A stretch of 64,000 nt of DNA from Histomonas meleagridis (lineage: Eukaryota > Parabasalia > Tritrichomonadida > Dientamoebidae): positions 496,001 to 560,000 of the forward strand of contig WSYJ01000138.1 in the NCBI GenBank assembly GCA_020186115.1, written 5' to 3'. The position numbers and the translations under genes were made by a program. Below the pieces are notes generated by a model. The model worked only from the letters and a program-made list of their open reading frames with translations, did not search any database and was not told where the DNA came from. Within the stretch, counting starts at the first letter, position 1; each line of letters opens with the position of its first letter. Shown here one piece after another: positions 7,365 to 37,111 of this stretch.

Positions 7365-7369
7365 AAATC

Positions 7370-7843: not shown

Positions 7844-7845
7844 TC

Positions 7846-15540: not shown

Positions 15541-15603
15541 ACACACACACACACAGCGCTATGTGAGCTTCGTGCTACGCACTCGCTCCCACTCGCGCTA
15601 CAT
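15541..15603. repeat. Left terminus: (AC)7 plus GC-rich subterminal block
   Basis: (AC)7 then AGCGCT, followed by about 45 bp of unusually GC-rich DNA with recurring GCGAG/CTCGC words, in an element that is otherwise about 75 percent AT. The mirrored copy is at 37044-37106. This is the likely binding and cleavage zone for the mobility protein (inference). Confidence 0.7.
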
Positions 15604-15963
15604 AAACTAAAGGATGAACGGCTAAAATCGATTGAATTATCATAAATCGGTTGGTTTTGATTGAAAGTAATTAAATATATTTAAATTCATGATGACATTT
15701 ATATTTAAAATGTGTGATGCATGAATCCGGCTGAGTTGTTGTTAATACTATGTGGATTTTAGTGTTTTGTTGTTAATCCTATGTAGATTTTAGTGTTTGG
15801 AGCTTAAAGTTGTTATTAACTGAGGTTTTGAATGTAAAAAGTACCTTTTAATTTTCAAAGGTGATTTTTTAACCTTTTTTTTTAACCCTTTACGAAACGG
15901 AGAAAATGAGCATTTTTTGAAGGATTTAACGCAAAAGTTGAATGACAAAAAAATAAATTATTT

Positions 15964-16520
15964 TTAAACGAAACCGTAAAGTTTTTTGAATTTTGAATAA
16001 TAAAGTGCAAAACTTGAATTATTAGTATCTCTGCAATAAACATGAGCAGAACCGCGCTTATCATAACAGATTGTTAATTTTTCTGAATTTAATACCGTTC
16101 CAAAAGTAAAACGCATCTGTTTTATCATCATAATAATAATCTTCTAATTGATGATTGCCATACTTATTAACTTCAATTGAATCCTCGTTGATTTCGTCGA
16201 AGAATTCAAAGTCTTTTCCTTTACCTGAACTTTTATTTTTTAGATTTTCTGACTGATAAACCCAACGGAGATTTGAAACGTGATTGTTTGAACGATTGTG
16301 ATCTATGTGATCTATAAAAGGTTTGTCATCAGGATTTGGAATAAATTGTAATGCAACAATACGATGTTTAAGATATAATTTTCTGTTTAATTTACATGCA
16401 ATATAACCGGTAGTTTTTATTGAAAATTCTTTAATGATTTTTTTTATCATTTTTTCTTCTAATGGCATAAGGGTATTCTGTGTTAATCTCATAATTTCGG
16501 TTTACGACGCAAGTTTTCCA
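15964..16520 (-). pseudogene. Outer HNH_3 endonuclease gene, left-arm copy (frameshifted, start overwritten)
   Basis: Left-arm partner of the gene at 36121-36682. It reads KLYLKHRIVALQFIP, then FIDHIDHNRSNN and NLRWVYQSEN (HNH_3 core), then the acidic C-terminal module. Three defects are visible. The first codons are replaced by a run of 20 A (16520-16539). An A8 run (coding strand) near 16440 shifts frame early, and this is shared with the right arm. An extra base near 16077 truncates the C-terminus in this arm only. The first and third look like consensus errors. Confidence 0.7.
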
Positions 16521-16539
16521 AAAAAAAAAAAAAAAAAAA

Positions 16540-17929
16540 TAAAAAATTAAATTTTTTTAAAATTAGCTTTAATTTTTTATTTTGTAAAATCATCCGAAAA
16601 ATGTTAATTTACTTCGTTTCGTTGAGGGTTCAAAAAAAGGGTTCACTTTTTTATTTTTTTAACCCTCAAAAATTTTGTGTCACTTTTGGTGTCACTTTTT
16701 GTGTAAATTTTCATATCACATGTCTGTGTCACTTTTATATAAACATTTCACATAACATTTCTTTGTTTTTCATTTTCACATATCGTTTCCGAAAAATCAT
16801 TTCATATCACATGTCTTTCATTTCATATCACATGTCAGTTGATGAAAAATTAACGTTCGTTAGTGATACGTTTACGAAAAATAAACGGACGGAGAAAATG
16901 ACGGTTGATAAATTTGAACAACCGCTGAAAAAGTAAGTTGTGAAAAATAAACTTTTTTTAACGGATTTCAAAAAATTTTTTTTAAACGTTTTCTGTTTAA
17001 AATTTAACGGAAATTAACGGACGGAGAAAATGACGGTTGAAGTTGTTGTAAAAAATATTTTGAATTATCATTTAATTTAGTGGCAAATGTAAAATTTTTT
17101 GAATTGTCATTTAATTTGGTGGCAAAACGATTAATAATTGAATAGGTACTGAAAATATTGGCGGGAAATGAATTTGAATGAGTTCTGAAAAAGTTTTTAA
17201 AAGTATTGAAATCTTAAAAAAAATCTGACACGCGTTTCTCGACACAGGAGCATTTTTTTTTCAATGTTGTAAAAAGTAAAGTATTGAATTATTTTACAAT
17301 GAAAAAAATTTTGGTGGTAATTGAACGTTAAGGATTAGAAATTGGCGGGCAGTAATGAGATTTGAATGAGTACTGAAAATGTAAATTTGAATGATGTTTT
17401 CAATTAGTGTCAAACGTAAAATTTTTTGAATCCACATTGAATTTAGTGGCAAATGTAAAAAATATTCGATGACGAATTTTATGACGGTGTTTATGACGAA
17501 GGATAAAGTGAACGTTAAGGAAGAACGTTAGAGTCGAACGTTAAGGAAGAACGTTAGAGTTGAACGTTAAGGTAGAACGAGTAAAAAAAAGTTCAAAAAT
17601 AAAATTCAATAGGTTTGGGAATCGAACGTAAGACATTAACAAAAAACGCACTGTACGGGAATCGAACGTAAGGCGTTCATTGAAAAAGTGAAAAACTGAC
17701 ATTGAAATTTTAAAATAAATTTATCTCGTTATATGATAGTTATTTTTACATGATTTACATATCAAACGAATCGCAAAATTATGTACTATTCAATGCTTAT
17801 AATTTCATGTTTTAAAATTGATGACATCATAAATTTATTTTTAGATTTTTGTAATTAACACTTAAAAATTGATGTTTCATTCGTGTGTGTGAGTGATTTG
17901 TCGATTTTAGCAATCAACGCTGATAAATT
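16540..17929. other. Non-coding outer stretch of left arm with short repeats
   Basis: About 1.4 kb with no supported gene. It holds two copies of a block containing AACGGACGGAGAAAATGACG (near 16882 and 17012), repeated ATTTAGTGGCAAATGTAAAA words, and near 17510-17580 tandem copies of GAACGTTAAGGAAGAACGTTAGAGT-like words (about 25-bp period). Two GGGAATCGAACGTAAG words near 17617 and 17659 resemble tRNA T-loop/B-box complements. The mirror lies at about 34720-36110. Confidence 0.5.
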
Positions 17930-18345
17930 CATGTTTTAAAATAATGATATATCATTAATTCCTTTGTCGAATGTTGTAACAAACGCTGATAAATTGAACG
18001 AACGTAAACTTGTTTTAAAATAATGATATATCATAAATTCCTTTGTGAATGTTGTAACAAACGATGATAAATTGAACGAACGTAAACTGGTTTTAAAATA
18101 ATGATATATCATTAATCCTCTGTCGAATGTTGTAATAAACGCTGAAAAATTGAACGAACGTAAACTTGTTTCGTTCATCTGAATCGTAAGTGATTTGTGG
18201 ATTTTGAGCGTTTGATGCTTAAAAATTGTTGTTTGAAAATAATGATATACATAAATTCCTCTGTCGAATGTTGCGATAAACGCTGAAAAATTGAACGAAC
18301 GTAAACTCGTTTTAAAATAATGTGAGTCGTTAATGGTTGTGTCGA
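17930..18345. repeat. 78-bp tandem repeats, left arm
   Basis: TTGAACGAACGTAAAC recurs near 17994, 18072, 18150 and 18291. The first three are 78 bp apart, each followed by AATGATATATCAT and a CGAATGTTG word. Because 78 is divisible by three, long artificial open frames run through the block. I do not treat these as genes. Mirror at about 34300-34720. Confidence 0.75.
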
Positions 18346-18609
18346 TTTTAGATTTTTTTTTAAATAATGAGGTAGCAAAGTAACCGGTAATTTTTATATT
18401 AACAGTATAGTGTCGGAGCCTTCCGACATCCGACATGAATTTTGATTTGTGACTTGTTACTGTTACCAGCACATTTTACAGAATTCTGTTTATAAGAATA
18501 AATTAACAGAAGAAACAACAGACAAAAAACAACTAGATGAAAGAATAACAGAAGAAACAAGAATATAATACTTATAAATGTACTGTTAAATGAAGGTATC
18601 AAATGCTGT

Positions 18610-18870
18610 TAATTTTGTTACCGCTATTGTTACCATCACCTTTAACAGTAATTATAAGAAAACAATGACTCATTCAAATCAAAAACAGCAAAGAAAACTC
18701 CGATTCACACATAATCGACTTTGAAAATTGTTACCATCACCTTTAACAGTAATTATAAGAAAACAATGACTCATTCAAATCAAAAACAGCAAAGAAAACT
18801 CCGATTCACACATAATTGACTTTGAAAATTGTTACCATCACCTTTAACAGTAATTATAGAAAACAATGAC
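18610..18870. repeat. 101-bp tandem repeats, left arm
   Basis: About 2.5 units of a roughly 101-bp repeat. GTTACCATCACCTTTAACAG recurs at about 18630, 18730 and 18831, followed by ATGACTCATTCAAATC and ACTCCGATTCACACATAAT. It lies directly downstream of the primase-helicase stop. Mirror at about 33778-34035. Confidence 0.75.
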
Positions 18871-18989
18871 TCATTATTTAGAATCATTAACTTTTATCAT
18901 TAAATTCAAAAAATAATTACAATATAATTTATCTCTTAACATCAAACTCTCCATTAAATTCTTCATTAAATTCTTCGTCGATTTTCTTT

Positions 18990-21292
18990 CTATAAAATAC
19001 ACGTGTATTTCTTCCAAATATTTTTATACTGCATTTTATAAATTTCTTTTTCCATCAGCTCTCTTTCAAATGATTTCTTACTTAGTTTAAAACGATCGTA
19101 TTTTGAGTATTGAACGTATAACCGGTTCATTTCTGATACTGTTATATATTCTATTTCTTCGTCATGATATATTGCATTCTTCCAACATTCTTGAATATCA
19201 TCAAGGAAATCTTCAAGCGGAGATTCTTTAATGGCTCTCAATTGATTTTGAACAATTGATGAATCATATCGGTCAAATAAATTTCTTTTCACAAAATCAT
19301 TTAGATCTAAAGACATTAAATAATTATATAAAGATAATGGAAAATTAATGTTGTCAATAACATCTTTATCCTTAACAAAAAAAAAAAAAAAAATGCTTCT
19401 TTCTTTAAATCTAATTATACAAAATCTTGACAGCAAGGCTTGATCTCCTGAATTCAACATACCGTATAAATCCGCGTGATTTGTGTTTAATACGTCGATG
19501 GCAAAATCATTTTCTTGGCGTGTATCACGATTCATCGATCGCACCGTTTGTGAGTTATTAGTCAATCGTTTGATGATATTATTTGTTGTTTTATTTGAAT
19601 AATTATCAGTTGAAAACTCATCATAAGAACGATAAAGCTTTTTAGCAAAACCACCGTTGTGCTTCTCACTTAGTTGTAGTTCATTTATTCCGACTAAGGC
19701 AAAATCTCGATAAAGTTTTTTGAATGAATTGTCGATATATGTTTTTCCAGAATTTCCGGTTGAAGAATATTTAATAAAGAATACTGGAGCTTTTTTACGA
19801 AACTTTAAAGTAAAAGCTGCTATTTTAAGTAGATGATGAAAAGCTTTTATTGCTTCATCATCAAAAAGTTGATCTTCAATTAATTGAATCCATTTACTAA
19901 TAAGATCAGGTTTATCTTCTATTGAGGTATAACTCATTGTGTTTGAGGGAGCTCTAAAGAGAGAGAAAATTTTATCATCATCTCCAATAACTTCAAACCT
20001 CACAAAACTTTTGAATCTATCTCTATTCTTAACGTTTCGTAATTCTTTAAACAAAGATATAGTTTTTGTGTCTGAAATCTTTTTATGCCTTTTACGCATC
20101 AGTTCTTTTTCTTCGTTTGTTGTTGGCAGTGTGATGTCAAAATTGAAATAATTCTGAAGTGATTTTGAATCTAAAATTTGAAAATCAATTTTTCCATCAT
20201 TGAAAACTTTAATAATATAATCTCCCCAATCAGTGAACGCCAAACATTTTATAAGGTTATTTATATAGTCATCAACTGTTGAAAAACTAATCATTTCTTT
20301 CAAATAATCAGAAAAACAGTATTTAGAATTTAAAAACTCATCTTTAGAAACATTATTTTTTTTAATTAACGGCAATATAAATTTATTATAATAATCATTA
20401 TTATGAATTTTTAATATCTTTAATAACACGCCATGATGTTTAAATCTCTTACTTCTATTTCTTGCTATTTGTTCAAAGAATTTATTTTTAGCATTAACTG
20501 TTAAATCAGCTGTTTCATAAATTTTCATAAACGCATCGTTTATTAAATCGCGATTGATTGTTTCACTTTCAAAAGAATTAAAACCGCAAATTACAGGAAG
20601 CAGAGAAATTTCTTGATCTACTGATTTATTGCAGTCGTTGTGGATTTCAAGATTTTTTAAAACCATTAACTAAAGCATTAAATAATTTTAATTCATTCTC
20701 TGGATTTCTTTCTTCTGTTTCTTCTTCAAATAATTCTTCATTAAAATTCAATTCTTCATTAAAAACAGTAACTTTTTCGTTTTGTTTCTCAGTTAAGCTT
20801 TCAAAATCAATTCCAATCTCATCAAAAAGTATATTTTTTAAATCATCAAAAGTCATTAATTCATCATTATTGCAATCGTTTATTAATATATACTCACCAA
20901 TAACTCCATCGTGATTCTTTGCTTTACTTCCCGGTAATACTACTATCGATCGTTTCTCTCTATCTATCGGAACGAATAAATCAACATCGAACAATTCACA
21001 ACTGAAGCATTTAATAAATCTATTCTTATTTAAAGACATCGATTGATCCCAAAAAACTATAAATATGTATTCCTCCTGACGCAGTTTTTACAATTTTACA
21101 CTTATTAAAAGCTTTAGAATTAAAAGATTTCAAAACTTCTTCTTGTTCACATTTAACGTCTATATCAACAATCGCGTACGGCGATAAATTAGCAAGTAAA
21201 GCTTCTCCGGTTCTTTTTCCGATCTTTACTCCATCATGCTTTTCATAATTGCGTAAAGTGATTTTGTCACCTATGAATGTATCGTTATTCAT
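18990..21292 (-). CDS. AEP primase-SF3 (D5-type) helicase, left-arm copy (frameshifted in assembly)
   Basis: Same gene as 31358-33774, in mirror orientation. The primase start is at 21292. The frame breaks at a T6 run near 21050 (coding strand; T5 in the right arm), resumes, and breaks again at an A6 run near 20655 (A5 in the right arm). From there the helicase is open to 18990: STGNSGKT (Walker A), SYDEF (Walker B), LNTNH (motif C), SRFCIIRF (arginine finger). A run of 18 A at 19377-19394 replaces sequence present in the right arm and turns a short charged segment into five Phe. Each break is intact in the other arm, so the real gene is probably unbroken, about 766-800 codons. Confidence 0.8.
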
Positions 21293-21386
21293 ATTCTTTT
21301 TAATGCTGCTAAAAAAAAGTAATTACAACATTAAAACTAAGCTTAATTACAAAACATATTTTTTAATATTTTTTACGACTAATAAA

Positions 21387-21656
21387 TGGAAACCATTAAT
21401 GATATTAATAACACAGAAGATAACAAAAAACATAGATTAACAAAAAAACCAAAAAAGATTGTATATTGATTTTCTAATGCGAGATGATATAAAAGAAATT
21501 TTAAAAACAATTCCAAAACGTTCACAATTGAATTTTTTAAGAGAAGCTTTTGAAAAAGAAACTGGAATTAAAATATCTCGTCATATAGCTTATTTAATAA
21601 AACCTGATAACATACCAACAGTTATTTATGGAGGTCAAACTTATATTGTGTGTTAA
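21387..21656 (+). CDS. Small putative DNA-binding protein, left-arm copy (one-base frameshift)
   Basis: Partner of the intact 89-residue gene at 30998-31267. The start and first 20 codons (METINDINNTEDNKKH) are present, then an A7 run (A6 in the right arm) shifts the frame. The remainder (LYIDFLMRDDIKEI to the end) is open. It is divergent from the primase-helicase, with about 95 bp between the start codons. Confidence 0.6.
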
Positions 21657-21779
21657 ATATTATTTTTGTCAACGCTCAAAAACACATCTTGCATTAACGT
21701 TATCATCAGCTTTATCATCATCAGCTTTATCATTCAACGAAAGCATTAATTAAAGAAGTTTCGACATATACATAAACGT

Positions 21780-21905
21780 TATCATTCAACGAAAAGCATT
21801 AATTAAAGAACTCTCGACACATCATTTTTGTTCTTATCATTCAACGAAAAGCATTAATTAAAGAACTCTCGACACATCATTTTTGTTCTTATCATTCAGC
21901 TTTAT
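21780..21905. repeat. 55-bp tandem repeats, left arm
   Basis: TATCATTCAACGAAAAGCATT recurs at 21780 and 21835, with a truncated third copy at 21890, each unit carrying CTCTCGACACATCATTTTTG. A degenerate unit lies just upstream near 21730. Mirror at about 30755-30890. It sits between two small genes, so it may be regulatory. Confidence 0.7.
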
Positions 21906-21974
21906 CATCAGCTTTACATCAACGCCAAATTTATTAATTTTAAATTATCATTTTATAATTTTATTTTTATATAA

Positions 21975-22355
21975 ATGGAGTTATTAATTCCAGAAGAATT
22001 TTTAAGATATAATATATCATTTTGTTTTGAAGATGAAGAATTCACTAACGCAAACACTATTATAGAAAATATATTTAGAATTTACGGCAAACAAAATTTT
22101 ATAGAGTTTTACTTTGACTTTGACGAAGCGCAAACGTTTGACAATATAGTATATAGAATTAGAATAAAGAACATAAAATTTGGTGATTCAAGCATAACGT
22201 TTGGAATTCCCGTTTATATTTACGTTACTAACGCAAAGCATAGAACGCTGACAAAGAATAATAACAAAGTCGTTTATTTTACAAAAAACTATGAGACGTT
22301 CAGGAATGAAGATGGAGTCGTCATTAAATATTATTATTATTATTATTTTAATTGA
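21975..22355 (+). CDS. Unknown element protein, 126 aa, left-arm copy (intact)
   Basis: No family recognised. It starts MELLIPEEFLRYNISFCF, is rich in Asn, Phe and Tyr, and has alternating hydrophobic residues suggesting beta strands (NIVYRIRIKNIKFGDSSI, GIPVYIYVTN). It ends in a run of Tyr. The ATG is preceded by TTTTATTTTTATATAA, the AT-rich upstream pattern shared by several element genes. The right-arm copy carries frame-disrupting bases. Confidence 0.65.
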   Translation: MELLIPEEFLRYNISFCFEDEEFTNANTIIENIFRIYGKQNFIEFYFDFDEAQTFDNIVYRIRIKNIKFGDSSITFGIPVYIYVTNAKHRTLTKNNNKVVYFTKNYETFRNEDGVVIKYYYYYYFN

Positions 22356-22375
22356 GAAATCACTAATTAAAAATC

Positions 22376-23080
22376 AATAATGAATACGTTGATTTTAGCA
22401 TCAAACGCTTAAAAATACTTCTTCCGTTTGTGTTATATAACTAATGATTATGTTGATTTAAAACAAGTGGATTTAAGTGCGAACGACTTAAAAATACTTC
22501 TTCCGTTTGTGTTATATAACTAATGATTACGTCGATTTAAAACATGTTGATTTAAGCGTGAACGACTTAAAAAATACTTCTTATGTTTACTTATATGTTA
22601 ATCCTATGTCGATTTTAGCATCAAATGCATAAAAAATACTTCTTCTGTTTACTTATATGTTAATCCTATGTCGATTTTAGCATCAAACGCTTAAAAAATA
22701 CTTCTTCCGTTCGTGTTATATCAATAATGATTTCGTCGATTATAGAATTACTGTTAAAATATAAGGCGGTACGATTTGACCACCATCAATTTTTTAAAAT
22801 TCTTTTGGTAACAAAGTAACGAGTCCCAGGTACCATTTATGTTTTTATATAAGTGGCGGCGAGCTCCGACTCCCGACATTAATTTTGATTTGTGACTTGG
22901 GACCCGGACCGATACATTTAACAGTATAATTAAGAAAAACATTGAACAAATCATAATAAATCGTTAATCCTTTGTCGAAACTAATAATTACCTCTTAAAA
23001 ATACTTCTTCATTTACTGATGAATAACTAATGATACGTCGATTATAAAATTACTGTTAAAACATAAGATGACAGGATCCT
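22376..23080. repeat. Dispersed degenerate repeats, left arm
   Basis: Repeated words AAAATACTTCTTCCGTTTGTG, ATATAACTAATGATTACGTCG, GTCGATTTTAGCATCAAACGC and their variants occur five or more times with irregular 60-80 bp spacing. No gene is supported. A copy of the region with ATTTTGATTTGTGACTTG is also found near 18440. Mirror at about 29570-30300. Confidence 0.6.
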
Positions 23081-23183
23081 GTCACCATGAATTTTTTAAA
23101 ATTTATGACACTGTGCAATTTTGCACACCCTTGATTTTAAAGTTAATTTTAAATCATTAATGTAAATTTTTACTGATTATAAA

Positions 23184-23480
23184 ATGAGTAAGTTAACAGT
23201 TGACCGCAAAAATAAAATACGAAAGAATCAAGTGATAGATTTTATCGTTTGGTATGATACATTGAAAGATAGTTTAAAAAATATGAGCCGTTCAAAAATT
23301 CAAGAGCTTTATTTAAATGACTCTGGCGTCGCTGTCTCAAATAATTTTGTGGCACAAATATTTAAAAACGACTATTTGATAAAAGGGAACAAGGTTTATA
23401 GGTTATATGGCTTGATTAATGACGGCGTTAATGAAAACAAAGACGGAGAGAATGAAGAAGAAGACAAAGAAATACATTAA
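23184..23480 (+). CDS. Small putative DNA-binding protein, 98 aa, left-arm copy (intact)
   Basis: Basic N-terminus (SKLTVDRKNKIRKNQVIDF), then helices with SRSKIQELYLNDSGVAVSNNFVAQIF and a strand-like end KGNKVYRLYGL, then an acidic tail. The order (helix, helix with G-V-x-V-S, turn, K-D-x-x-I/L, short strands) resembles a winged helix-turn-helix and parallels the 89-residue protein of this element. Function not known; DNA binding is inferred. The ATG follows ACTGATTATAAA. It is convergent with the inner HNH gene. Confidence 0.65.
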   Translation: MSKLTVDRKNKIRKNQVIDFIVWYDTLKDSLKNMSRSKIQELYLNDSGVAVSNNFVAQIFKNDYLIKGNKVYRLYGLINDGVNENKDGENEEEDKEIH

Positions 23481-23564
23481 CGAAAAGGATTATTTTGAAA
23501 CGTGTCAAAACAAGAATTTTTTAGTGTGAATGACAAAATTAATTGAAAAAATAAAACTTGTAAA

Positions 23565-24119
23565 TTAAACGAAGCCATAAATTTTCTTAAATTTTGCATA
23601 ATAAATCCTGACTTGTTTATTATTTATGTCGCGTGCATTGACGAAAGCATAACTGCGCTTATTATAACAGATTGTTAATTTTCTGAACTGTAAACCGTTC
23701 CAAAAGTAAAACGCGTCTGTTTCGTCGTCATAGTAATAATCCTCAAATTGATAATTATTATACTCTCTAACTTCAATTGAATCTTCATTGATTTCATCAA
23801 AATACTCAAAATCTTTCCTATATGATGCTCTATTCTTTGAATTTTCTGAAGCAGAAACCCAACGGAGATTATTAATGTTATTATTAGTTTTATTATGATC
23901 TATATGATCAATAAATGGCTTATTTTCATGATTCGGTATGAATTGTTCTGCAATAATTCTGTGTTTGAGATATAATTTGTTATTTAAGTAACATTGAACA
24001 TATCCTGTATTCATTACTGATTCTTTAATAATTCTTTTATTACTTTTTCTTCGAATCTGAAAAGGAAATTCTGTGAAAATTTCATAATTACAATCACAAA
24101 TACAATCAATCCAGCTCAT
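23565..24119 (-). CDS. Inner HNH_3 endonuclease, 184 aa, left-arm copy
   Basis: Identical in length to the right-arm copy at 28534-29088, which is described in full there. It is intact here. The upstream region carries a run of 16 A (24217-24232) where the right arm has mixed sequence. Confidence 0.85.
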   Translation of the reverse strand: MSWIDCICDCNYEIFTEFPFQIRRKSNKRIIKESVMNTGYVQCYLNNKLYLKHRIIAEQFIPNHENKPFIDHIDHNKTNNNINNLRWVSASENSKNRASYRKDFEYFDEINEDSIEVREYNNYQFEDYYYDDETDAFYFWNGLQFRKLTICYNKRSYAFVNARDINNKQVRIYYAKFKKIYGFV

Positions 24120-24464
24120 TATTTTTATATAAATAAAAAAATTAAATTTTTTAAAAATTAAACTTAATTTTTGAAATCTCAAAATCATTCGGAAAATGCT
24201 AAATTACTGGAGTTGTAAAAAAAAAAAAAAAATGCAGTACCTTATGAAACATCAACCGCTTAAAAATTGAACGAACGTAAACTTGTTTCAAAATAATGAT
24301 ATATCATAAATTCCTTTGTCGAATGTCGCATCAAACGCTTAAAAATACTTTATCTGTTCGTGTTTTTTCATTAACGACAAACGTAAATTTAAAACGTGTG
24401 GATTTAAGCGCGAAATGACTTAAAAATTGATTTCGCAATAATAATAAGATGTAAACATATTCAA

Positions 24465-24698
24465 TTACTGAATCATTAACGACAAAACATTCGTATAATT
24501 TATTAAACGCGGATCTACGTATGTTCCTCTTAAATAGTTTTCCTTTACAGAAAATCCTTTATTTAATTGATAAATTGGCTGTTTCTCTTGCTCGCCCTTT
24601 TTCGGGCTACCATAATATTCTTTGTAAAATTCATCATAAAATTCTTGCCAAGAGTGATTTTCAAAAATTGTATATATATTTTTTGATGATTCATTCAT
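24465..24698 (-). CDS. KilA-N-like short protein, left-arm copy (77 aa)
   Basis: Identical to 27952-28185. Its C-terminal LRGTYVDPRLINY matches the KilA-N hallmark (GTYVHPxLI). See the right-arm copy for detail. The start overlaps the 64-bp repeat block, so the true 5' end is uncertain. Confidence 0.45.
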   Translation of the reverse strand: MNESSKNIYTIFENHSWQEFYDEFYKEYYGSPKKGEQEKQPIYQLNKGFSVKENYLRGTYVDPRLINYTNVLSLMIQ

Positions 24699-24842
24699 CC
24701 GAAGTTATTTGATGATATGTGGATTTGAGCGCTAGATGTTTAAATCTTGATGATTCATTCATCCGAAGTTATTTGATGATATGTGGATTTGAGCGCTAGA
24801 TGTTTAAATCTTGATGATTCATTCATCCGAAGTTATTGATTG
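24687..24842. repeat. 64-bp tandem repeats, left arm
   Basis: TGATTCATTCATCCGAAG recurs at 24687, 24751 and 24815, exactly 64 bp apart, each full unit containing GATATGTGGATTTGAGCGCT. The first unit overlaps the start of the KilA-N-like frame. Mirror at about 27805-27963. Confidence 0.8.
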
Positions 24843-25738: not shown

Positions 25739-25974
25739 GATTGTGTCGAATGAATCTTATATTTTGTTCTTCGTTAATGATTGTGTCGAATGAATCTTAT
25801 ATTTTGTTCTTCGTTAATGATTGTATCAAATGAATCTTATATTTTGTTCTTCATTAATGATTGTGTCGAATGAATCTTATTTCTTGTTATTCATTAATGA
25901 TTGTATCAAATGAATCTTATATTTTGTTATTCAATCTTCGGATAATAAATGATTGTGTCGAATGAATCTTATTT
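25739..25974. repeat. 40-bp iteron-like direct repeats, left of centre
   Basis: TTGTGTCGAATGAATCTTAT (variants TTGTATCAAATG) starts at 25741, 25781, 25821, 25861 and 25901, exactly 40 bp apart, and again at 25953. Mirror-image copies lie at 26673-26908, so 12 units flank the unique centre. This resembles iteron arrays at replication origins; that role is inference. Confidence 0.85.
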
Positions 25975-26024
25975 CTTGATTCTCTGAAGATTTAAGTGTT
26001 TGATGTTGTCGTTGACGTTATAAA

Positions 26025-26620: not shown

Positions 26621-26672
26621 TTTATAACGTCAACGACAACATCAAACACTTAAATCTTCAGAGAATCAAGAA

Positions 26673-26908: not shown

Positions 26909-27951
26909 TTATTATCCGAAGATTGAAGAACAAGAAACTTGTAAAATCAACATTCACGTTAATGAGTCATTGAATGATATGTGGAAATGAGTCATTTATG
27001 CTCAAAAATTGTTGTTTTAAATCAATTTCTAACGTTAATGATTATTAACAGCTCACGTAAACACTTAATATTCGTGTGAAATCATCTGAACGGAGAAACT
27101 CAATCGTCAATTTGAAATTTCCTTTAGCTAATCGCAATATTACCTGGTAACTACCTGGTATATCAAGTTATCAGGTAGTATTTATTTTATGAAAAAACAA
27201 ACATAGGATTAATATATATCATTCGCGTCCTTGTATTTTCTTGTTATTTTACTTAAAAATACATGTTTCTAAATTCACGTTTAGTCGTTAATGAATCATC
27301 AGCAGCTCACGTAAACACTCAATATTCACGTCAAATCATCTGAACGGAGAAACTCAATCGTCAATTTGAAATTTCCTTTAGCTAATAACTTTTTTAGTTA
27401 GTTAGTTAGTTAGTTTGTCATTATTAAAATAATATGAAAAAATCAAACATAGATTAATAATATATCATAAACGTCCTTGTATTTTCTGGCCTTTCTACTG
27501 AAAAATACTTGTTTCAAATTCACGTTGTCGTTAATGAGACTTCATTCATCAAAAAAATATATAAAAAAATTCAAGGTTAAAAAACAAAAAAAAGTTAACC
27601 TTTCAGTAACTGCAGTAAACTTGCAATATTCACGTCAAATCATCCGAAAAAACGCTGATTTACTCGAGTTTGTAAGAGGTTAACTTTTTTCGGGTTAAAA
27701 AATATTTTTTAAAAAATTAAAAGATACTTTTTACATCAAAACCTCAGTTAATAAGAACTTTTCGACACAATCACAAATGTAACATCAAGAATAAGAACTT
27801 TTCGACACAATCAATAACTTCGGATGAATGAATCATCAAGATTTAAACATCTAGCGCTCAAATCCACATATCATCAAATAACTTCGGATGAATGAATCAT
27901 CAAGATTTAAACATCTAGCGCTCAAATCCACATATCATCAAATAACTTCGG

Positions 27952-28185
27952 ATGAATGAATCATCAAAAAATATATATACAATTTTTGAAAATCACTCTT
28001 GGCAAGAATTTTATGATGAATTTTACAAAGAATATTATGGTAGCCCGAAAAAGGGCGAGCAAGAGAAACAGCCAATTTATCAATTAAATAAAGGATTTTC
28101 TGTAAAGGAAAACTATTTAAGAGGAACATACGTAGATCCGCGTTTAATAAATTATACGAATGTTTTGTCGTTAATGATTCAGTAA
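27952..28185 (+). CDS. KilA-N-like short protein, right-arm copy (77 aa)
   Basis: The C-terminal third, YLRGTYVDPRLINYTNVLS, matches the most conserved part of the KilA-N DNA-binding domain (L-x-GTYVHP-x-L-I-x-x-I). The N-terminal part (HSWQEFYDEFYKEYYG) is not clearly KilA-N, and the usual W-x-S/K-x-E block after the hallmark is missing. At 77 residues it is shorter than a full domain plus tail, so it may be a remnant or exon-like fragment. KilA-N proteins are common in large DNA viruses and are known in trichomonad genomes. Identical in both arms. Confidence 0.45.
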   Translation: MNESSKNIYTIFENHSWQEFYDEFYKEYYGSPKKGEQEKQPIYQLNKGFSVKENYLRGTYVDPRLINYTNVLSLMIQ

Positions 28186-28533
28186 TTGAATATGTTTACA
28201 TCTTATTATTATTGCGAAATCAATTTTTAAGTCATTTCGCGCTTAAATCCACACGTTTTAAATTTACGTTTGTCGTTAATGAAAAAACACGAACAGATAA
28301 AGTATTTTTAAGCGTTTGATGCGACATTCGACAAAGGAATTTATGATATATCATTATTTTGAAACAAGTTTACGTTCGTTCAATTTTTAAGCGGTTGATG
28401 TTTCATAAGGTACTGCATTTTTGCACGACCTCAACAACTCCAGTAATTTAGCATTTTCCGAATGATTTTGAGATTTCAAAAATTAAGTTTAATTTTTAAA
28501 AAAATTTAATTTTTTTTATTTATATAAAAAATA

Positions 28534-29088
28534 ATGAGCTGGATTGATTGTATTTGTGATTGTAATTATGAAATTTTCACAGAATTTCCTTTTCAGATTC
28601 GAAGAAAAAGTAATAAAAGAATTATTAAAGAATCAGTAATGAATACAGGATATGTTCAATGTTACTTAAATAACAAATTATATCTCAAACACAGAATTAT
28701 TGCAGAACAATTCATACCGAATCATGAAAATAAGCCATTTATTGATCATATAGATCATAATAAAACTAATAATAACATTAATAATCTCCGTTGGGTTTCT
28801 GCTTCAGAAAATTCAAAGAATAGAGCATCATATAGGAAAGATTTTGAGTATTTTGATGAAATCAATGAAGATTCAATTGAAGTTAGAGAGTATAATAATT
28901 ATCAATTTGAGGATTATTACTATGACGACGAAACAGACGCGTTTTACTTTTGGAACGGTTTACAGTTCAGAAAATTAACAATCTGTTATAATAAGCGCAG
29001 TTATGCTTTCGTCAATGCACGCGACATAAATAATAAACAAGTCAGGATTTATTATGCAAAATTTAAGAAAATTTATGGCTTCGTTTAA
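28534..29088 (+). CDS. Inner HNH_3 endonuclease, right-arm copy (184 aa)
   Basis: Predicted DNA endonuclease of the homing type. Residues 1-30 (MSWIDCICDCNYEIFTEFPF) are an N-terminal segment also present in the outer HNH gene and resembling NUMOD4-like starts. The HNH_3 core is at about 45-105: KLYLKHRIIAEQFIP, FIDHIDHNKTNNNINNL, RWVSASEN, giving the His, Asn/His and Asn ligands. The C-terminal module (about 110-184; FFDEINEDSIEV-like, DAFYFWNGLQFRKL, KIYGF) is shared with the outer HNH protein and the central protein. It is intact in both arms. About 65 bp of upstream sequence is conserved with the outer HNH gene, which suggests duplication of a complete gene unit. Confidence 0.85.
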   Translation: MSWIDCICDCNYEIFTEFPFQIRRKSNKRIIKESVMNTGYVQCYLNNKLYLKHRIIAEQFIPNHENKPFIDHIDHNKTNNNINNLRWVSASENSKNRASYRKDFEYFDEINEDSIEVREYNNYQFEDYYYDDETDAFYFWNGLQFRKLTICYNKRSYAFVNARDINNKQVRIYYAKFKKIYGFV

Positions 29089-29172
29089 TTTACAAGTTTT
29101 ATTTTTTCAATTAATTTTGTCATTCACACTAAAAAATTCTTGTTTTGACACGTTTCAAAATAATCCTTTTCG

Positions 29173-29470
29173 TTAATGTATTTCTTTGTCTTCTTCTTCA
29201 TTCTCTCCGTCTTTGTTTTCATTAACGCCGTCATTAATCAAGCCATATAACCTATAAACCTTGTTCCCTTTTATCAAATAGTCGTTTTTAAATATTTGTG
29301 CCACAAAATTATTTGAGACAGCGACGCCAGAGTCATTTAAATAAAGCTCTTGAATTTTTGAACGGCTCATATTTTTTAAACTATCTTTCAATGTATCATA
29401 CCAAACGATAAAATCTATCACTTGATTCTTTCGTATTTTATTTTTTGCGGTCAACTGTTAACTTACTCAT
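29173..29470 (-). CDS. Small putative DNA-binding protein, right-arm copy (one-base frameshift near start)
   Basis: Partner of the intact 98-residue gene at 23184-23480. The ATG (complement of 29468-29470) and first nine codons are present, then an A6 run (A5 in the left arm) shifts the frame; the rest is open. Most likely a consensus error. Confidence 0.6.
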
Positions 29471-30296
29471 TTTATAATCAGTAAAAATTTACATTAATGA
29501 TTTAAAATTAACTTTAAAATCAAGGGTGTGCAAAATTGCACAGTGTCATAAATTTTAAAAAATTCATGGTGACAGGATCCTGTCATCTTATGTTTTAACA
29601 GTAATTTTATAATCGACGTATCATTAGTTATTCATCAGTAAATGAAGAAGTATTTTTAAGAGGTAATTATTAGTTTCGACAAAGGATTAACGATTTATTA
29701 TGATTTGTTCAATGTTTTTCTTAATTATACTGTTAAATGTATCGGTCCCGGTCCCAAGTCACAAATCAAAATTAATGTCGGGAGTCGGAGCTCTCCGCCA
29801 CTTATATATAAACATAAATGGTACCTGGGACTCGTTACTTTGTTACCAAAAGAATTTTAAAAAATTGATGGTGGTCAAATCGTACCGCCTTATGTTTTAA
29901 CAGTAATTCTATAATCGACGAAATCATTATTGATATAACACGAACGGAAGAAGTATTTTTTAAGCGTTTGATGCTAAAATCGACATAGGATTAACATATA
30001 AGTAAACAGAAGAAGTATTTTTATGCATTTGATGCTAAAATCGACATAGGATTAACATATAAGTAAACATAAGAAGTATTTTTAAGTCGTTCACGCTTAA
30101 ATCAACATGTTTTAAATCGACGTAATCATTAGTTATATAACACAAACGGAAGAAGTATTTTTAAGTCGTTCGCACTTAAATCCACTTGTTTTAAATCAAC
30201 ATAATCATTAGTTATATAACACAAACGGAAGAAGTATTTTTAAGCGTTTGATGCTAAAATCAACGTATTCATTATTGATTTTTAATTAGTGATTTC

Positions 30297-30679
30297 TCAA
30301 TTAAAATAATAATAATAATAATATTTAATGACGACTCCATCTTCATTCCTGAACGTCTCATAGTTTTTTGTAAAATAAACGACTTTGTTATTATTCTTTG
30401 TCAGCGTTCTATGCTTTGCGTTAGTAACGTAAATATAAACAGGGAATTCCAAACGTTATGCTTGAATCACCAAATTTTATGTTCTTTATTCTAATTCTAT
30501 ATACTATATTGTCAAACGTTTGCGCTTCGTCAAAGTCAAAGTAAAACTCTATAAAAATTTTGTTTGCCGTAAATTCTAAATATATTTTCTATAATAGTGT
30601 TTGCGTTAGTGAATTCTTCATCTTCAAAACAAAATGATATATTATATCTTAAAAATTCTTCTGGAATTAATAACTCCAT
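30297..30679 (-). CDS. Unknown element protein, right-arm copy (frame-disrupted)
   Basis: Partner of the intact 126-residue gene at 21975-22355. The start and end are conserved, but the copy is two bases longer, including an extra T after GGAATTCCC near 30445, so the frame is lost in this arm. Confidence 0.6.
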
Positions 30680-30997
30680 TTATATAAAAATAAAATTATA
30701 AAATGATAATTTAAAATTAATAAATTTGGCGTTGATGTAAAGCTGATGATAAAGCTGAATGATAAGAACAAAAATGATGTGTCGAGAGTTCTTTAATTAA
30801 TGCTTTTCGTTGAATGATAAGAACAAAAATGATGTGTCGAGAGTTCTTTAATTAATGCTTTTCGTTGAATGATAACGTTTATGTATATGTCGAAACTTCT
30901 TTAATTAATGCTTTCGTTGAATGATAAAGCTGATGATGATAAAGCTGATGATAACGTTAATGCAAGATGTGTTTTTCGACGATGACAAAAATGATAT

Positions 30998-31267
30998 TTA
31001 CCACACAATATAAGTTTGACCTCCATAAATAACTGTTGGTATGTTATCAGGTTTTATTAAATAAGCTATATGACGAGATATTTTAATTCCAGTTTCTTTT
31101 TCAAAAGCTTCTCTTAAAAAATTCAATTGTGAACGTTTTGGAATTGTTTTTAAAATTTCTTTTATATCATCTCGCATTAGAAAATCAATATACAATCTTT
31201 TTTGGTTTTTTGTTAATCTATGTTTTTTGTTATCTTCTGTGTTATTAATATCATTAATGGTTTCCAT
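30998..31267 (-). CDS. Small putative DNA-binding protein, 89 aa, right-arm copy (intact)
   Basis: Starts METINDINNTEDNKKHRL, then basic helices (RLYIDFLMRDDIKEIL), then IPKRSQLNFLREAFEKETG and IKISRHIAYLIKPDN, and ends in a short hydrophobic strand (TVIYGGQTYIVW). The S-x-L...G-I-x-I-S-x-x-I-A pattern suggests a helix-turn-helix or winged helix. The order parallels the 98-residue protein of the same element, so the two may be distant paralogues. It is divergent from the primase-helicase with a 90-bp gap, a position typical for a regulator (inference). Confidence 0.65.
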   Translation of the reverse strand: METINDINNTEDNKKHRLTKNQKRLYIDFLMRDDIKEILKTIPKRSQLNFLREAFEKETGIKISRHIAYLIKPDNIPTVIYGGQTYIVW

Positions 31268-31357
31268 TTATTAGTCGTAAAAATATTAAAAATATGTTTT
31301 GTAATTAAGCTTAGTTTTAATGTTGTAATTACTTTTTTTAGCAGCATTAAAAAGAAT

Positions 31358-33774
31358 ATGAATAACGATACATTCATAGGTGACAAAATCACTTTACGCA
31401 ATTATGAAAAGCATGATGGAGTAAAGATCGGAAAAAGAACCGGAGAAGCTTTACTTGCTAATTTATCGCCGTACGCGATTGTTGATATAGACGTTAAATG
31501 TGAACAAGAAGAAGTTTTGAAATCTTTTAATTCTAAAGCTTTTAATAAGTGTAAAATTGTAAAAACTGCGTCAGGAGGAATACATATTTATAGTTTTTGG
31601 GATCAATCGATGTCTTTAAATAAGAATAGATTTATTAAATGCTTCAGTTGTGAATTGTTCGATGTTGATTTATTCGTTCCGATAGATAGAGAGAAACGAT
31701 CGATAGTAGTATTACCGGGAAGTAAAGCAAAGAATCACGATGGAGTTATTGGTGAGTATATATTAATAAACGATTGCAATAATGATGAATTAATGACTTT
31801 TGATGATTTAAAAAAATATACTTTTTGATGAGATTGGAATTGATTTTGAAAGCTTAACTGAGAAACAAAACGAAAAAGTTACTGTTTTTAATGAAGAATT
31901 GAATTTTAATGAAGAATTATTTGAAGAAGAAACAGAAGAAAGAAATCCAGAGAATGAATTAAAATTATTTAATGCTTTAGTTAATGGTTTTAAAAATCTT
32001 GAAATCCACAACGACTGCAATAAATCAGTAGATCAAGAAATTTCTCTGCTTCCTGTAATTTGCGGTTTTAATTCTTTTGAAAGTGAAACAATCAATCGCG
32101 ATTTAATAAACGATGCGTTTATGAAAATTTATGAAACAGCTGATTTAACAGTTAATGCTAAAAAATAAATTCTTTGAACAAATAGCAAGAAATAGAAGTA
32201 AGAGATTTAAACATCATGGCGTGTTATTAAAGATATTAAAAATTCATAATAATGATTATTATAATAAATTTATATTGCCGTTAATTAAAAAAAATAATGT
32301 TTCTAAAGATGAGTTTTTAAATTCTAAATACTGTTTTTCTGATTATTTGAAAGAAATGATTAGTTTTTCAACAGTTGATGACTATATAAATAACCTTATA
32401 AAATGTTTGGCGTTCACTGATTGGGGAGATTATATTATTAAAGTTTTCAATGATGGAAAAATTGATTTTCAAATTTTAGATTCAAAATCACTTCAGAATT
32501 ATTTCAATTTTGACATCACACTGCCAACAACAAACGAAGAAAAAGAACTGATGCGTAAAAGGCATAAAAAGATTTCAGACACAAAAACTATATCTTTGTT
32601 TAAAGAATTACGAAACGTTAAGAATAGAGATAGATTCAAAAGTTTTGTGAGGTTTGAAGTTATTGGAGATGATGATAAAATTTTCTCTCTCTTTAGAGCT
32701 CCCTCAAACACAATGAGTTATACCTCAATAGAAGATAAACCTGATCTTATTAGTAAATGGATTCAATTAATTGAAGATCAACTTTTTGATGATGAAGCAA
32801 TAAAAGCTTTTCATCATCTACTTAAAATAGCAGCTTTTACTTTAAAGTTTCGTAAAAAAGCTCCAGTATTCTTTATTAAATATTCTTCAACCGGAAATTC
32901 TGGAAAAACATATATCGACAATTCATTCAAAAAACTTTATCGAGATTTTGCCTTAGTCGGAATAAATGAACTACAACTAAGTGAGAAGCACAACGGTGGT
33001 TTTGCTAAAAAGCTTTATCGTTCTTATGATGAGTTTTCAACTGATAATTATTCAAATAAAACAACAAATAATATCATCAAACGATTGACTAATAACTCAC
33101 AAACGGTGCGATCGATGAATCGTGATACACGCCAAGAAAATGATTTTGCCATCGACGTATTAAACACAAATCACGCGGATTTATACGGTATGTTGAATTC
33201 AGGAGATCAAGCCTTGCTGTCAAGATTTTGTATAATTAGATTTAAAGAAAGAAGCATTTTTGAATCAGAATTTGTTAAGGATAAAGATGTTATTGACAAC
33301 ATTAATTTTCCATTATCTTTATATAATTATTTAATGTCTTTAGATCTAAATGATTTTGTGAAAAGAAATTTATTTGACCGATATGATTCATCAATTGTTC
33401 AAAATCAATTGAGAGCCATTAAAGAATCTCCGCTTGAAGATTTCCTTGATGATATTCAAGAATGTTGGAAGAATGCAATATATCATGACGAAGAAATAGA
33501 ATATATAACAGTATCAGAAATGAACCGGTTATACGTTCAATACTCAAAATACGATCGTTTTAAACTAAGTAAGAAATCATTTGAAAGAGAGCTGATGGAA
33601 AAGAAATTTATAAAATGCAGTATAAAATATTTGGAAGAAATACACGTGTATTTTATAGAAAGAAAATCGACGAAGAATTTAATGAAGAATTTAATGGAGA
33701 GTTTGATGTTAAGAGATAAATTATATTGTAATTATTTTTTGAATTTAATGATAAAAGTTAATGATTCTAAATAA
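31358..33774 (+). CDS. AEP primase-SF3 (D5-type) helicase, right-arm copy (frameshifted in assembly)
   Basis: Replication protein joining a primase/polymerase core to a hexameric helicase. The primase part has AIVDIDVK (D43, D45; motif I), ASGGIHIYS (H76; motif II) and an FDVDLF segment (motif III), the AEP arrangement. Downstream come SF3 motifs: Walker A STGNSGKT (about residue 508), Walker B SYDEF (about 557), motif C VLNTNH (about 600) and SRFCIIRF with the arginine finger (about 620). The flanking sequence resembles poxvirus-D5/phage-P4-type helicases. The frame breaks at an A7 run (about 31811) and an A6 run (about 32160). The left arm has A6 and A5 there, and is itself broken elsewhere. 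The C-terminus differs between arms through one A indel near 33600, so the true end is uncertain. No host-type initiator is present. Confidence 0.82.
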
Positions 33775-34035
33775 TGAGTCATTGTTTTCTATAATTACTG
33801 TTAAAGGTGATGGTAACAATTTTCAAAGTCAATTATGTGTGAATCGGAGTTTTCTTTGCTGTTTTTGATTTGAATGAGTCATTGTTTTCTTATAATTACT
33901 GTTAAAGGTGATGGTAACAATTTTCAAAGTCGATTATGTGTGAATCGGAGTTTTCTTTGCTGTTTTTGATTTGAATGAGTCATTGTTTTCTTATAATTAC
34001 TGTTAAAGGTGATGGTAACAATAGCGGTAACAAAA
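33775..34035. repeat. 101-bp tandem repeats, right arm
   Basis: Mirror of 18610-18870: about 2.5 units with CTGTTAAAGGTGATGGTAAC and ATTTGAATGAGTCATTG, right after the primase-helicase. Confidence 0.75.
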
Positions 34036-34299
34036 TTAACAGCATTTGATACCTTCATTTAACAGTACATTTATAAGTATTATATTCTTGTTTCTTCTGT
34101 TATTCTTTCATCTAGTTGTTTTTTTTTTTTTTTTCTTCTGTTAATTTATTCTTATAAACAGAATTCTGTAAAATGTGCTGGTAACAGTAACAAGTCACAA
34201 ATCAAAATTCATGTCGGATGTCGGAAGGCTCCGACACTATACTGTTAATATAAAAATTACCGGTTACTTTGCTACCTCATTATTTAAAAAAAAATCTAA

Positions 34300-34720
34300 A
34301 ATCGACACAACCATTAACGACTCACATTATTTTAAAACGAGTTTACGTTCGTTCAATTTTTCAGCGTTTATCGCAACATTCGACAGAGGAATTTATGTAT
34401 ATCATTATTTTCAAACAACAATTTTTAAGCATCAAACGCTCAAAATCCACAAATCACTTACGATTCAGATGAACGAAACAAGTTTACGTTCGTTCAATTT
34501 TTCAGCGTTTATTACAACATTCGACAGAGGATTAATGATATATCATTATTTTAAAACAAGTTTACGTTCGTTCAATTTATCATCGTTTGTTACAACATTC
34601 ACAAAGGAATTTATGATATATCATTATTTTAAAACAAGTTTACGTTCGTTCAATTTATCAGCGTTTGTTACAACATTCGACAAAGGAATTAATGATATAT
34701 CATTATTTTAAAACATGAAT
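34300..34720. repeat. 78-bp tandem repeats, right arm
   Basis: GTTTACGTTCGTTCAAT recurs in four units, each with ACATTCGACAAAGGA and ATGATATATCAT. The mirror is at 17930-18345. A 178-codon open frame through here is an artefact of the 78-bp period. Confidence 0.75.
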
Positions 34721-34729
34721 TTATCAGCG

Positions 34730-36110
34730 TTGATTGCTAAAATCGACAAATCACTCACACACACGAATGAAACATCAATTTTTAAGTGTTAATTACAAAA
34801 ATCTAAAAATAAATTTATGATGTCATCAATTTTAAAACATGAAATTATAAGCATTGAATAGTACATAATTTTGCGATTCGTTTGATATGTAAATCATGTG
34901 AAAATAACTATCACATAACGAAATAAATTTATTTTTAAATTTCAATGTCAGTTTTTCACTTTTTCCATGAACGCCTTACGTTCGATTCCCGTACAGTGCG
35001 TTTTTTGTTAATGTCTTACGTTCGATTCCCAAACCTATTGAATTTTATTTTTGGACTTTTTTTACTCGTTCTACCTTAACGTTCAACTCTAACGTTCTTC
35101 CTTAACGTTCGACTCTAACGTTCTTCCTTAACGTTCACTTTATCCTTCGTCATAAACACCGTCATAAAATTCGTCATCGAATATTTTTTACATTTGCCAC
35201 TAAATTCAATGTGGATTCAAAAAATTTTACGTTTGACACTAATTGAAAACATCATTCAAATTTACATTTTCAGTACTCATTCAAATCTCATTACTGCCCG
35301 CCAATTTCTAATCCTTAACGTTCAATTACCACCAAAATTTTTTTCATTGTAAAATAATTCAATACTTTACTTTTTTACAACATTGAAAAAAAAATGCTCC
35401 TGTGTCGAGAAACGCGTGTCAGATTTTTTTTTAAGATTTCAATACTTTTATAAACTTTTTCAGAACTCATTCAAATTCATTTTCCCGCCAATATTTTCAG
35501 TACCTATTCAATTATTAATCGTTTTGCCACCAAATTAAAAAAAAAAAAAAAAAATTTTACATTTGCCACTAAATTAAATGATAATTCAAAATATTTTTTA
35601 CAACAACTTCAACCGTCATTTTCTCCGTCCGTTAATTTCCGTTAAATTTTAAACAGAAAACGTTTAAAAAAAATTTTTTGAAATCCGTTAAAAAAAGTTT
35701 ATTTTTCACAACTTACTTTTTCAGCGGTTGTTCAAATTTATCAACCGTCATTTTCTCCGTCCGTTTATTTTTCGTAAACGTATCACTAACGAACGTTAAT
35801 TTTTCATCAACTGACATGTGATATGAAATGAAAGACATGTGATATGAAATGATTTTTCGGAAACGATATGTGAAAATGAAAAACAAAAATGTTATGTGAA
35901 ATGTTTATATAAAAGTGACACAGACATGTGATATGAAATTTTACACAAAAAGTGACACCAAAAGTGACACAAAATTTTTGAGGGTTAAAAAAATAAAAAA
36001 GTGAACCCTTTTTTTGAACCCTCAACGAAACGAAGTAAATTAACATTTTTCGGATGATTTTACAAAATAAAAAATTAAAGCTAATTTTAAAAAAATTTAA
36101 TTTTTTATTT
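34730..36110. other. Non-coding outer stretch of right arm
   Basis: Mirror of 16540-17929. Contains tandem AACGTTC words, two TTACGTTCGATTCCC (B-box-like) words near 34977 and 35019, and a run of 18 A (35537-35554) where the left arm has mixed sequence. No gene supported. Confidence 0.5.
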
Positions 36111-36120
36111 TTAATAAAAT

Positions 36121-36682
36121 ATGAGTTGGAAAACTTGCGTTGTAAACCGAAATTATGAGATTAACACAGAATACCCTTATGCCATTAGAAGAAAAAATGA
36201 TAAAAAAAATCATTAAAGAATTTTCAATAAAAACTACCGGTTATATTGCATGTAAATTAAACAGAAAATTATATCTTAAACATCGTATTGTTGCATTACA
36301 ATTTATTCCAAATCCTGATGACAAACCTTTTATAGATCACATAGATCACAATCGTTCAAACAATCACGTTTCAAATCTCCGTTGGGTTTATCAGTCAGAA
36401 AATCTAAAAAATAAAAGTTCAGGTAAAGGAAAAGACTTTGAATTCTTTGACGAAATCAACGAGGATTCAATTGAAGTTAATAAGTATGGCAATCATCAAT
36501 TAGAAGATTATTATTATGATGATAAAACAGATGCGTTTTACTTTTGGAACGGTATTAAATTCAGAAAATTAACAATCTGTTATGATAAGCGCGGTTCTGC
36601 TCATGTTTATTGCAGAGATACTAATAATTCAAGTTTTGCACTTTATTATTCAAAATTCAAAAAACTTTACGGTTTCGTTTAA
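36121..36682 (+). CDS. Outer HNH_3 endonuclease, right-arm copy (early A8 frameshift)
   Basis: Paralogue of the inner HNH gene. It starts MSWKTCVVNRNYEINTEYPY, then an A8 run near 36200 shifts frame, and the second frame continues with IIKEFSIKTTGYIACK. The HNH core follows (LYLKHRIVALQFIP, FIDHIDHNRSNNHVSNL, RWVYQSEN) and the shared C-terminal module (EDYYYDDKTDAFYFWNG, KLYGFV). With seven A the whole gene would be open. The A8 is present in both arms, unlike the arm-specific errors, so it may be a real mutation or a slippage site. It lies about 430 bp inside the right end. Confidence 0.78.
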
Positions 36683-37043
36683 AAATAATTTATTTTTTTG
36701 TCATTCAACTTTTGCGTTAAATCCTTCAAAAAATGCTCATTTTCTCCGTTTCGTAAAGGGTTAAAAAAAAAGGTTAAAAAATCACCTTTGAAAATTAAAA
36801 GGTACTTTTTACATTCAAAACCTCAGTTAATAACAACTTTAAGCTCCAAACACTAAAATCTACATAGGATTAACAACAAAACACTAAAATCCACATAGTA
36901 TTAACAACAACTCAGCCGGATTCATGCATCACACATTTTAAATATAAATGTCATCATGAATTTAAATATATTTTAATTACTTTCAATCAAAACCAACCGA
37001 TTTATGATAATTCAATCGATTTTAGCCGTTCATCCTTTAGTTT

Positions 37044-37106
37044 ATGTAGCGCGAGTGGGAGCGAGTGCGTAGCACGAAGCTCACATAGCGCTGTGTGTGT
37101 GTGTGT
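37044..37106. repeat. Right terminus: GC-rich subterminal block plus (GT)7
   Basis: Exact mirror of the left terminus, ending AGCGCT-(GT)7 at 37106 and followed directly by ATTCA. Confidence 0.7.
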
Positions 37107-37111
37107 ATTCA
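37107..37111. repeat. Target-site duplication, right copy (ATTCA)
   Basis: ATTCA directly follows (GT)7 at the right terminus and matches 15536-15540. Confidence 0.85.

Follow-up and report, generated by a model that had tools for sequence, protein, structure and literature searches.

Linear protein-primed replicons can give rise to palindromic derivatives, such as the F-type plasmids of yeast pGKL1 and the snap-back genomes of adenovirus. In these, one end of the molecule is duplicated head to head while the other end and its genes are lost, and the resulting forms are extrachromosomal. This article describes a palindrome that lies instead in a chromosome, flanked by a target duplication and accompanied by related copies. 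The element, here called W, occupies positions 15541-37106 of a 64,000-nucleotide stretch of the Histomonas meleagridis genome (contig WSYJ01000138.1, positions 496,001 to 560,000, hereafter the window). It probably derives, with a likelihood of roughly six in ten, from a linear element of the Polinton/Maverick type by snap-back, with one end duplicated head to head; it carries its own primase-helicase, and Polinton integrases would have inserted it in trans.

Two other groups of elements invite comparison. Foldback elements such as Galileo and Tetris have inverted repeats that fill much of their length; these repeats are mostly non-coding, unlike those of W, which make up 97% of the element and carry a replication gene and Polinton ends. 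Polintons or Mavericks share with W long terminal inverted repeats, a short target duplication, a size of tens of kb, and KilA-N and primase genes among the family. The target duplication is 6 bp in vertebrate Mavericks (PMC8097293) and 5-6 bp in Polinton-like viruses (PMC12220804), while the Maverick Tv1.6 of Trichomonas vaginalis encodes a protein with a DNA primase domain (PMC7845603). Bellas et al., 2023 (PMC10120064) likewise report protist Polinton-like viruses and virophages that carry Pri-Hel and rve genes, together with a Metamonada group that includes five parabasalid species. These viruses have in common with W a primase-SF3 helicase, HNH genes, terminal inverted repeats and insertion in a protist genome, but no capsid gene was recognised in W when 14 of its open reading frames (ORFs) were scanned with Pfam. 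The titles and abstract openings returned by a literature search describe no palindromic Polinton, and its results held no paper on snap-back derivatives of pGKL1 or adenovirus. No word beginning with "palindrom-" occurs in the main texts of PMC10120064, PMC8097293, PMC12220804, PMC7845603, PMC6431247, PMC3671162 and PMC11071308.

W measures 21,566 bp, of which 20,970 bp (97%) are palindrome. An earlier note on this DNA had proposed a 21.6-kb, almost completely palindromic element around a 596-bp centre, and this architecture is confirmed. Inverted pairs in mirror register reach 1,101 nucleotides at 100% identity in the repeat search; chance is no concern. Repeat search and arm alignment define the two arms, and the parts are as follows:

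15541..26024, plus strand: left arm, 10,484 bp
26025..26620, plus strand: unique centre, 596 bp
26621..37106, minus strand: right arm, 10,486 bp, 99.13% identical to the left arm in inverted orientation
25736..25933, mirrored at 26712-26909: 40-bp tandem repeat, 4.9 copies, adjoining the centre

Aligned globally, the arms differ in 91 of 10,466 aligned columns (99.13% identity) and show 30 gap events besides. Only 12 mismatches are isolated, the other 79 lying within 12 columns of another difference, and 21 of the gaps are single bases adjoining A or T runs of at least five. Many of the clustered mismatches are A runs that overwrite sequence retained in the opposite arm; on the plus strand such runs, with length unchanged, replace the other arm's sequence at window 16522-16534, 19380-19388, 24217-24227 and 35540-35548. 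They look like polishing or consensus errors of the assembly. One of them alters residues of the left-arm primase-helicase at which the right arm of W and its relative on contig C61 agree, so part of the difference between the arms is probably sequence error. (C numbers denote contigs of the same genome, which was searched as 121 contigs of 43,276,120 bases and in which W lies on C74.)

W is a clean insertion, with the 5-bp duplication to which the earlier note referred. Flank comparison and the empty-site match define the two copies:

15536..15540: target site duplication ATTCA, left copy
37107..37111: right copy of the ATTCA duplication

A 600-bp query made by joining the flanks and removing one ATTCA finds uninterrupted matches at five other places in the genome, at 88-95% identity, over 600 bases on C30, 603 on C82, 600 on C92, 592 on C26 and 584 on C84 (query 16-600), with shorter pieces on three further contigs. 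These five relatives indicate that the target belongs to a repeat family and that W entered it without other visible damage. In the left flank an open frame reaches the duplication, and the right flank continues in the same register for 33 codons (read by eye); the left piece of this frame has no Pfam match. The flanks, window 15241-15540 and 37107-37411, are thus multi-copy sequence with an open frame interrupted by W.

The insertion site bears on two ways in which a palindrome might be only apparent or secondary. By the first, fold-back reads or a collapsed repeat would have turned a one-arm element into a palindrome during assembly. The likely source assembly was built from Nanopore reads of sheared DNA with Flye and Illumina polishing, according to its description (PMC8529796). 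Fold-back contigs exist in the same assembly (C88, and C27, whose flanks are mirrored where seen), and the A-run overwrites between the arms resemble polishing errors. The flanks of W, however, differ from side to side, carry the duplication and fit a single empty site, and the sequence runs on for 26.9 kb past W in the window. Moreover, the arms of the C61 palindrome differ by 2-3% (blastn) as well as in tandem-array length, flanks and outer parts, which is not expected from a fold-back read. Since the target is repeated, a joining of flanks from two target copies is conceivable, but both would need W at the same base. An artefact is the least probable of the explanations weighed here. By the second, two opposite insertions would have been joined end to end in the chromosome by recombination or deletion. 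From T. vaginalis, nested Mavericks and ones apparently fused end to end are reported (PMC7845603), and the elements on C38 and C61 look composite. The single duplication and the empty site make it most likely, however, that W was inserted as a unit, and its centre recurs on C4 and C88. Such a fusion is very unlikely.

The termini of W, ACACACACACACACAGCGCTATGTGAGC, have the form ACACAC..GTGTGT. A search of the whole genome with the 40-base terminus, allowing up to 3 mismatches, gives 71 sites, against none in the reversed control, and copies with different flanks exist among them. Of 35 matches on the reverse strand, 23 lie at most 5 kb from a contig start; the assembly thus often breaks in elements with ends of this type. 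Comparison with C82, a 24.3-kb element that encodes an rve integrase (E 2.6e-8), a Pox_A32 ATPase (E 1.2e-8) and HNH proteins, gives two features on the left arm:

15541..15783, plus strand: terminal sequence common to Polinton-type elements, 243 bp, 98% identical to the left end of C82
15541..17769, mirrored at 34878-37106, plus strand: outer 2.2 kb, colinear with the HNH-side end of C82

Along this stretch both arms follow C82 block by block in the same order, at 90, 89 and 98% identity, whereas the opposite end of C82 matches W in its first 243 bp and in short repeats of about 50-60 bp. Both ends of W are accordingly of the HNH-side, non-integrase kind. When 26 ORFs of C82 were compared with W by tblastn, two matched, both HNH. 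Matches to rve integrase also lie inside C11 and C99, two further elements with W-type ends. In its ends and outer 2.2 kb W thus shows one of the end types of a Polinton/Maverick family present in this genome, and the view that the element fits no named class is in part wrong. By end type, W has ATGTGAGC on either side; in C11 and in C82 one end is ATGTGAGC and the other ATTGAAGC. Eight pairs of termini with independent flanks were examined (W, C99, C11, C61, C82, C1, C8 and a 43-kb pair on C114), and a 5-bp duplication was found in three: ATTCA in W, AGCGA in C11 and CCTAC in C99, the last if two terminal bases are counted as target. Two pairs on C27 were dropped from this set since their visible flank letters are mirrored, and the C88 pair was left out for its mirrored flanks. 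The IS481EU transposons of parabasalids, DDE transposons present in Histomonas and distantly related to rve integrases, end in TGT..ACA and are flanked by duplications of about 4, 15 or 25 bp (PMC10045372), unlike W with ACACAC..GTGTGT and 5 bp. The published repeat annotation assigns 0.22% of the genome to DNA transposons (PMC8529796).

Smaller derivatives with W termini are also seen. At C1:553244-560021 lies one of 6.8 kb with C82 ORFs, including the A32 ATPase, at 86-99%, and at C8:273036-277669 one of 4.6 kb with 1.4-kb inverted ends (84%) that contain tandem repeats. On C27, the region around 472159-478208 is a fold-back contig centred on an element with a W terminus. Two likenesses seen by eye in C82 and C38 frames were not confirmed: that of a 638-amino-acid frame of C82 to PolB, judged from motifs, which Pfam, PHROGs and PDB do not bear out, and that of the 391-amino-acid frame of C82 and 524-amino-acid frame of C38 to capsid proteins, for which Pfam gives nothing, as do PHROGs and PDB for the C82 frame.

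Both arms carry a replication gene and nucleases, as proposed in the earlier note. The genes of W are:

18990..21292, minus strand: PrimPol-SF3 helicase, left copy, three overlapping frames, AEP and helicase motifs present
31220..33774, plus strand: PrimPol-SF3 helicase, right copy, two or more frames, with the AEP and helicase motifs
16061..16492, minus strand: probable outer-arm HNH endonuclease, left frame, 143 amino acids, shorter than the right copy, assigned through its right-arm mirror and tblastn with C82 HNH proteins
36155..36682, plus strand: outer-arm HNH_3 endonuclease, right copy, 175 amino acids, E 1.7e-10
23565..24188, minus strand: inner-arm HNH_3 endonuclease, left copy, 207 amino acids
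28534..29088, plus strand: inner-arm HNH_3 endonuclease, right copy, 184 amino acids
26097..26555, plus strand: centre ORF, 152 amino acids, its C-terminal part resembling part of the HNH proteins of this family
24465..24698, mirrored at 27952-28185, minus strand: KilA-N-like frame, 77 amino acids, weak Pfam match
21975..22355, plus strand: ORF of 126 amino acids without assigned function; a similar 125-amino-acid frame occurs in C61 (both arms) and C38
23184..23480, plus strand: small protein, 98 amino acids, its helix-turn-helix likeness being a suggestion of the earlier note

In the present assembly neither copy of the primase-helicase is a single frame; each spreads over two or three overlapping ones, a point absent from the earlier note. 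Their match to DUF5906 in Pfam is below the cut-off (24.6 against 27.6 bits), and the identity of the protein is decided by its motifs and by the fold of an 88%-identical relative; fold matches in BFVD are consistent with the primase-helicases of phages and giant viruses. PHROGs gave no match, NCBIfam one match among 17 relatives, and comparison with PDB sequences, by single protein or profile, found nothing; a profile scan of IMG/VR returned 44 pattern matches and no relative. The lineage to which the gene belongs has been under purifying selection. The two HNH_3 nucleases proposed for each arm hold up, the left outer one by way of its mirror, as the Pfam scan covered the right frame (36155-36682) and not the left (16061-16492). 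In the centre ORF, a C82 HNH protein matches W 10797-10958 (window 26337-26498) at 48% over 54 residues, E 2e-13 (tblastn). The KilA-N likeness is present as a weak match (E 9e-4) and stays below the Pfam cut-off, at 19.5 against 23.8 bits; the 98-amino-acid protein has no significant Pfam match.

The lack of a known integrase gene in W, noted before, stands, since none of the 56 rve matches in the genome falls in it. PolB and the packaging-type ATPase of the family are likewise not found: none of the 11 genome matches to PF03175 lies in W, at a sensitivity at which a very divergent PolB could be missed, and neither the 638-amino-acid ORF nor the A32 ORF of C82 gives a tblastn match in it. The same holds for the 391-amino-acid ORF of C82; the Pfam scan that gave no capsid family in W is likewise blank on the capsid-like frames of C82 and C38. 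With neither integrase, PolB nor ATPase detected, a palindrome over 97% of its length and one end type at both ends, W counts as a derivative of Polintons and not as a full Polinton, although its ends are common to rve-encoding relatives.

Relatives of the W-type primase (at least 77% identity) occur on seven contigs, C74 (W itself), C61, C4, C88, C38, C13 and C2, the first four of which hold two inverted copies. On C38 and C13 the match begins at contig base 2-3, and C2 has a fragment. Weaker primase matches (24-59%), on C61 near 59-60 kb and on C101, C70, C90, C92, C42 and C86, were not counted as W-type. C61 is a second palindrome, at about 86516-108684, with arms mostly 97-98% alike (blastn). 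Its centre, inner part and flanks differ from those of W, its tandem array is longer in the left arm, and its left end is of the other type, not that of the W ends. Inside its arms lies an A22-type Holliday-junction resolvase (C61:100186-100857, Pox_A22 E 5.6e-9), open in one arm and with 11 stops in the mirror copy; C82 holds a distant A22-type resolvase. C4 is a 15.5-kb contig wholly within a palindrome, with arms 98% alike and no flanks, and may for that reason be a folded contig. In C88 (423633-469172) the mirror continues at 99.4-99.5% into the sampled flanks, as near as 135 bp to the contig end; having first been a candidate for a second clean palindrome, it was dropped as a fold-back contig, and C13 was rejected as its missing right flank, as the C13 flank lacks the target letters of C88. 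The centre of W has three more matches in the genome, on C88 (99%), C4 (97%) and C38 (78%). Whether copies share the form of W thus has a divided answer: the palindromic form recurs on C61 and, without flanks, on C4, and the 5-bp duplication is confined to three of the eight pairs.

The earlier note offered two origins, a transposon with arms kept identical by gene conversion and a head-to-head product of a shorter replicon. Five arm segments were compared among W, C61, C4 and C88 (positions in W coordinates). In W 7040-8000, the arms are 99.2-99.9% alike within each of the four, while W is 92-94% identical to C4 and C88 and 98.4-98.9% identical to C61; both arms have therefore changed together. 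This is what would be expected if the palindrome were a stable inherited form of a Polinton lineage, formed once, inserted whole and kept symmetrical by gene conversion. The common centre of C4, C88 and W (97-99%) points to a common palindromic source, and the W arms pair in the segment trees of the primase, mid2 and inner1. Gene conversion nevertheless fits one of the five segments and fails elsewhere. For the primase segment, the identity between the two C61 arms is 98.08%, lower than the 99.14% between the right C61 arm and its W counterpart. Over W 9220-10470 the two W arms agree at 98.32%, less than the left W arm does with the C4 arms (99.2-99.3%), and over W 5300-6100 the two C88 arms agree at 97.99%, less than the left C88 arm does with C4 (99.1-99.4%). 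The W arms do not pair in the mid1 and inner2 trees, and in the primase tree neither the arms of C61 nor those of C4 are paired. C61, with another centre and inner part on both sides, is easier to derive from a second fold-back, and C88 is a fold-back contig. Strict inheritance of one palindrome is accordingly rather unlikely. The head-to-head product fits better, and both processes may act; the palindrome seems in part to descend as a palindrome and in part to have been made anew or converted.

A snap-back origin could have proceeded as follows. A strand of a replicating linear molecule would fold back near the present centre and be copied back on itself, so that each side would bear an identical functional end and the replication gene would be present twice. 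If replication starts at either terminal repeat, as it can in protein-primed linear replicons, the symmetric molecule would retain the cis sequences it needs. Its own primase-helicase may help to copy it with a polymerase from elsewhere, and the integrases (perhaps also the capsids) of Polintons with the same ends may provide for its insertion and spread in trans. Symmetry would then be maintained by arm-to-arm copying, renewed fold-back, or both. Poxviruses use an A22-type resolvase on cruciform or hairpin junctions, and the one in C61 would suit a replicon that meets such junctions.

Several observations weigh against a snap-back origin. None of the seven contigs with W-type primase holds a complete single-copy element, although the matches on C38 and C13 start at the contig edge and C2 has a fragment, and no single-arm ancestor was found among them. 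The replication block of W has no counterpart in C82, so that a source Polinton for the fold-back was not found, and no extrachromosomal form was seen. The 5-bp duplication is absent from five of the eight terminus pairs (C61, C82, C1, C8 and C114). C99 also carries ATGTGAGC at both ends and, judged by its single integrase match near one of them, is not palindromic; identical end types alone are thus no proof of fold-back. Finally, C38, an 85% relative, is half-palindromic and rearranged, and continues into an integrase-like gene (rve 26.4 bits, below the cut-off of 32.6).

The snap-back reading can be extended, tentatively, to a two-part system. W would then be a Polinton satellite living as an obligate palindrome, with its own PrimPol-helicase, a borrowed integrase and perhaps a borrowed capsid, and with its symmetry regenerated each round through a hairpin or fold-back intermediate; the C61 branch would have its own A22-type resolvase in the arms. 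This fuller scheme is possible rather than probable.

Outside W, the right flank region contains a DDE_3 transposase fragment (window 49320-49811, E 7e-12). Imperfect inverted repeat blocks (75-81%) lie about 19 kb apart at window 43084-44031 and 62546-63449, the second overlapping the end of an ankyrin-repeat ORF at 61852-62715.

Palindromic derivatives are known for free linear plasmids and for viruses in culture, while W has become fixed in a genome, where it forms a clean insertion; palindromic relatives accompany it, and its replication gene comes from a lineage that has been under selection. Assemblers cut or fold such elements, which are therefore under-counted. If the snap-back reading is true, Polinton replication, with initiation at either end, fold-back and integration in trans, would become testable from genome sequence, and Polintons may have a defective or satellite class of their own.

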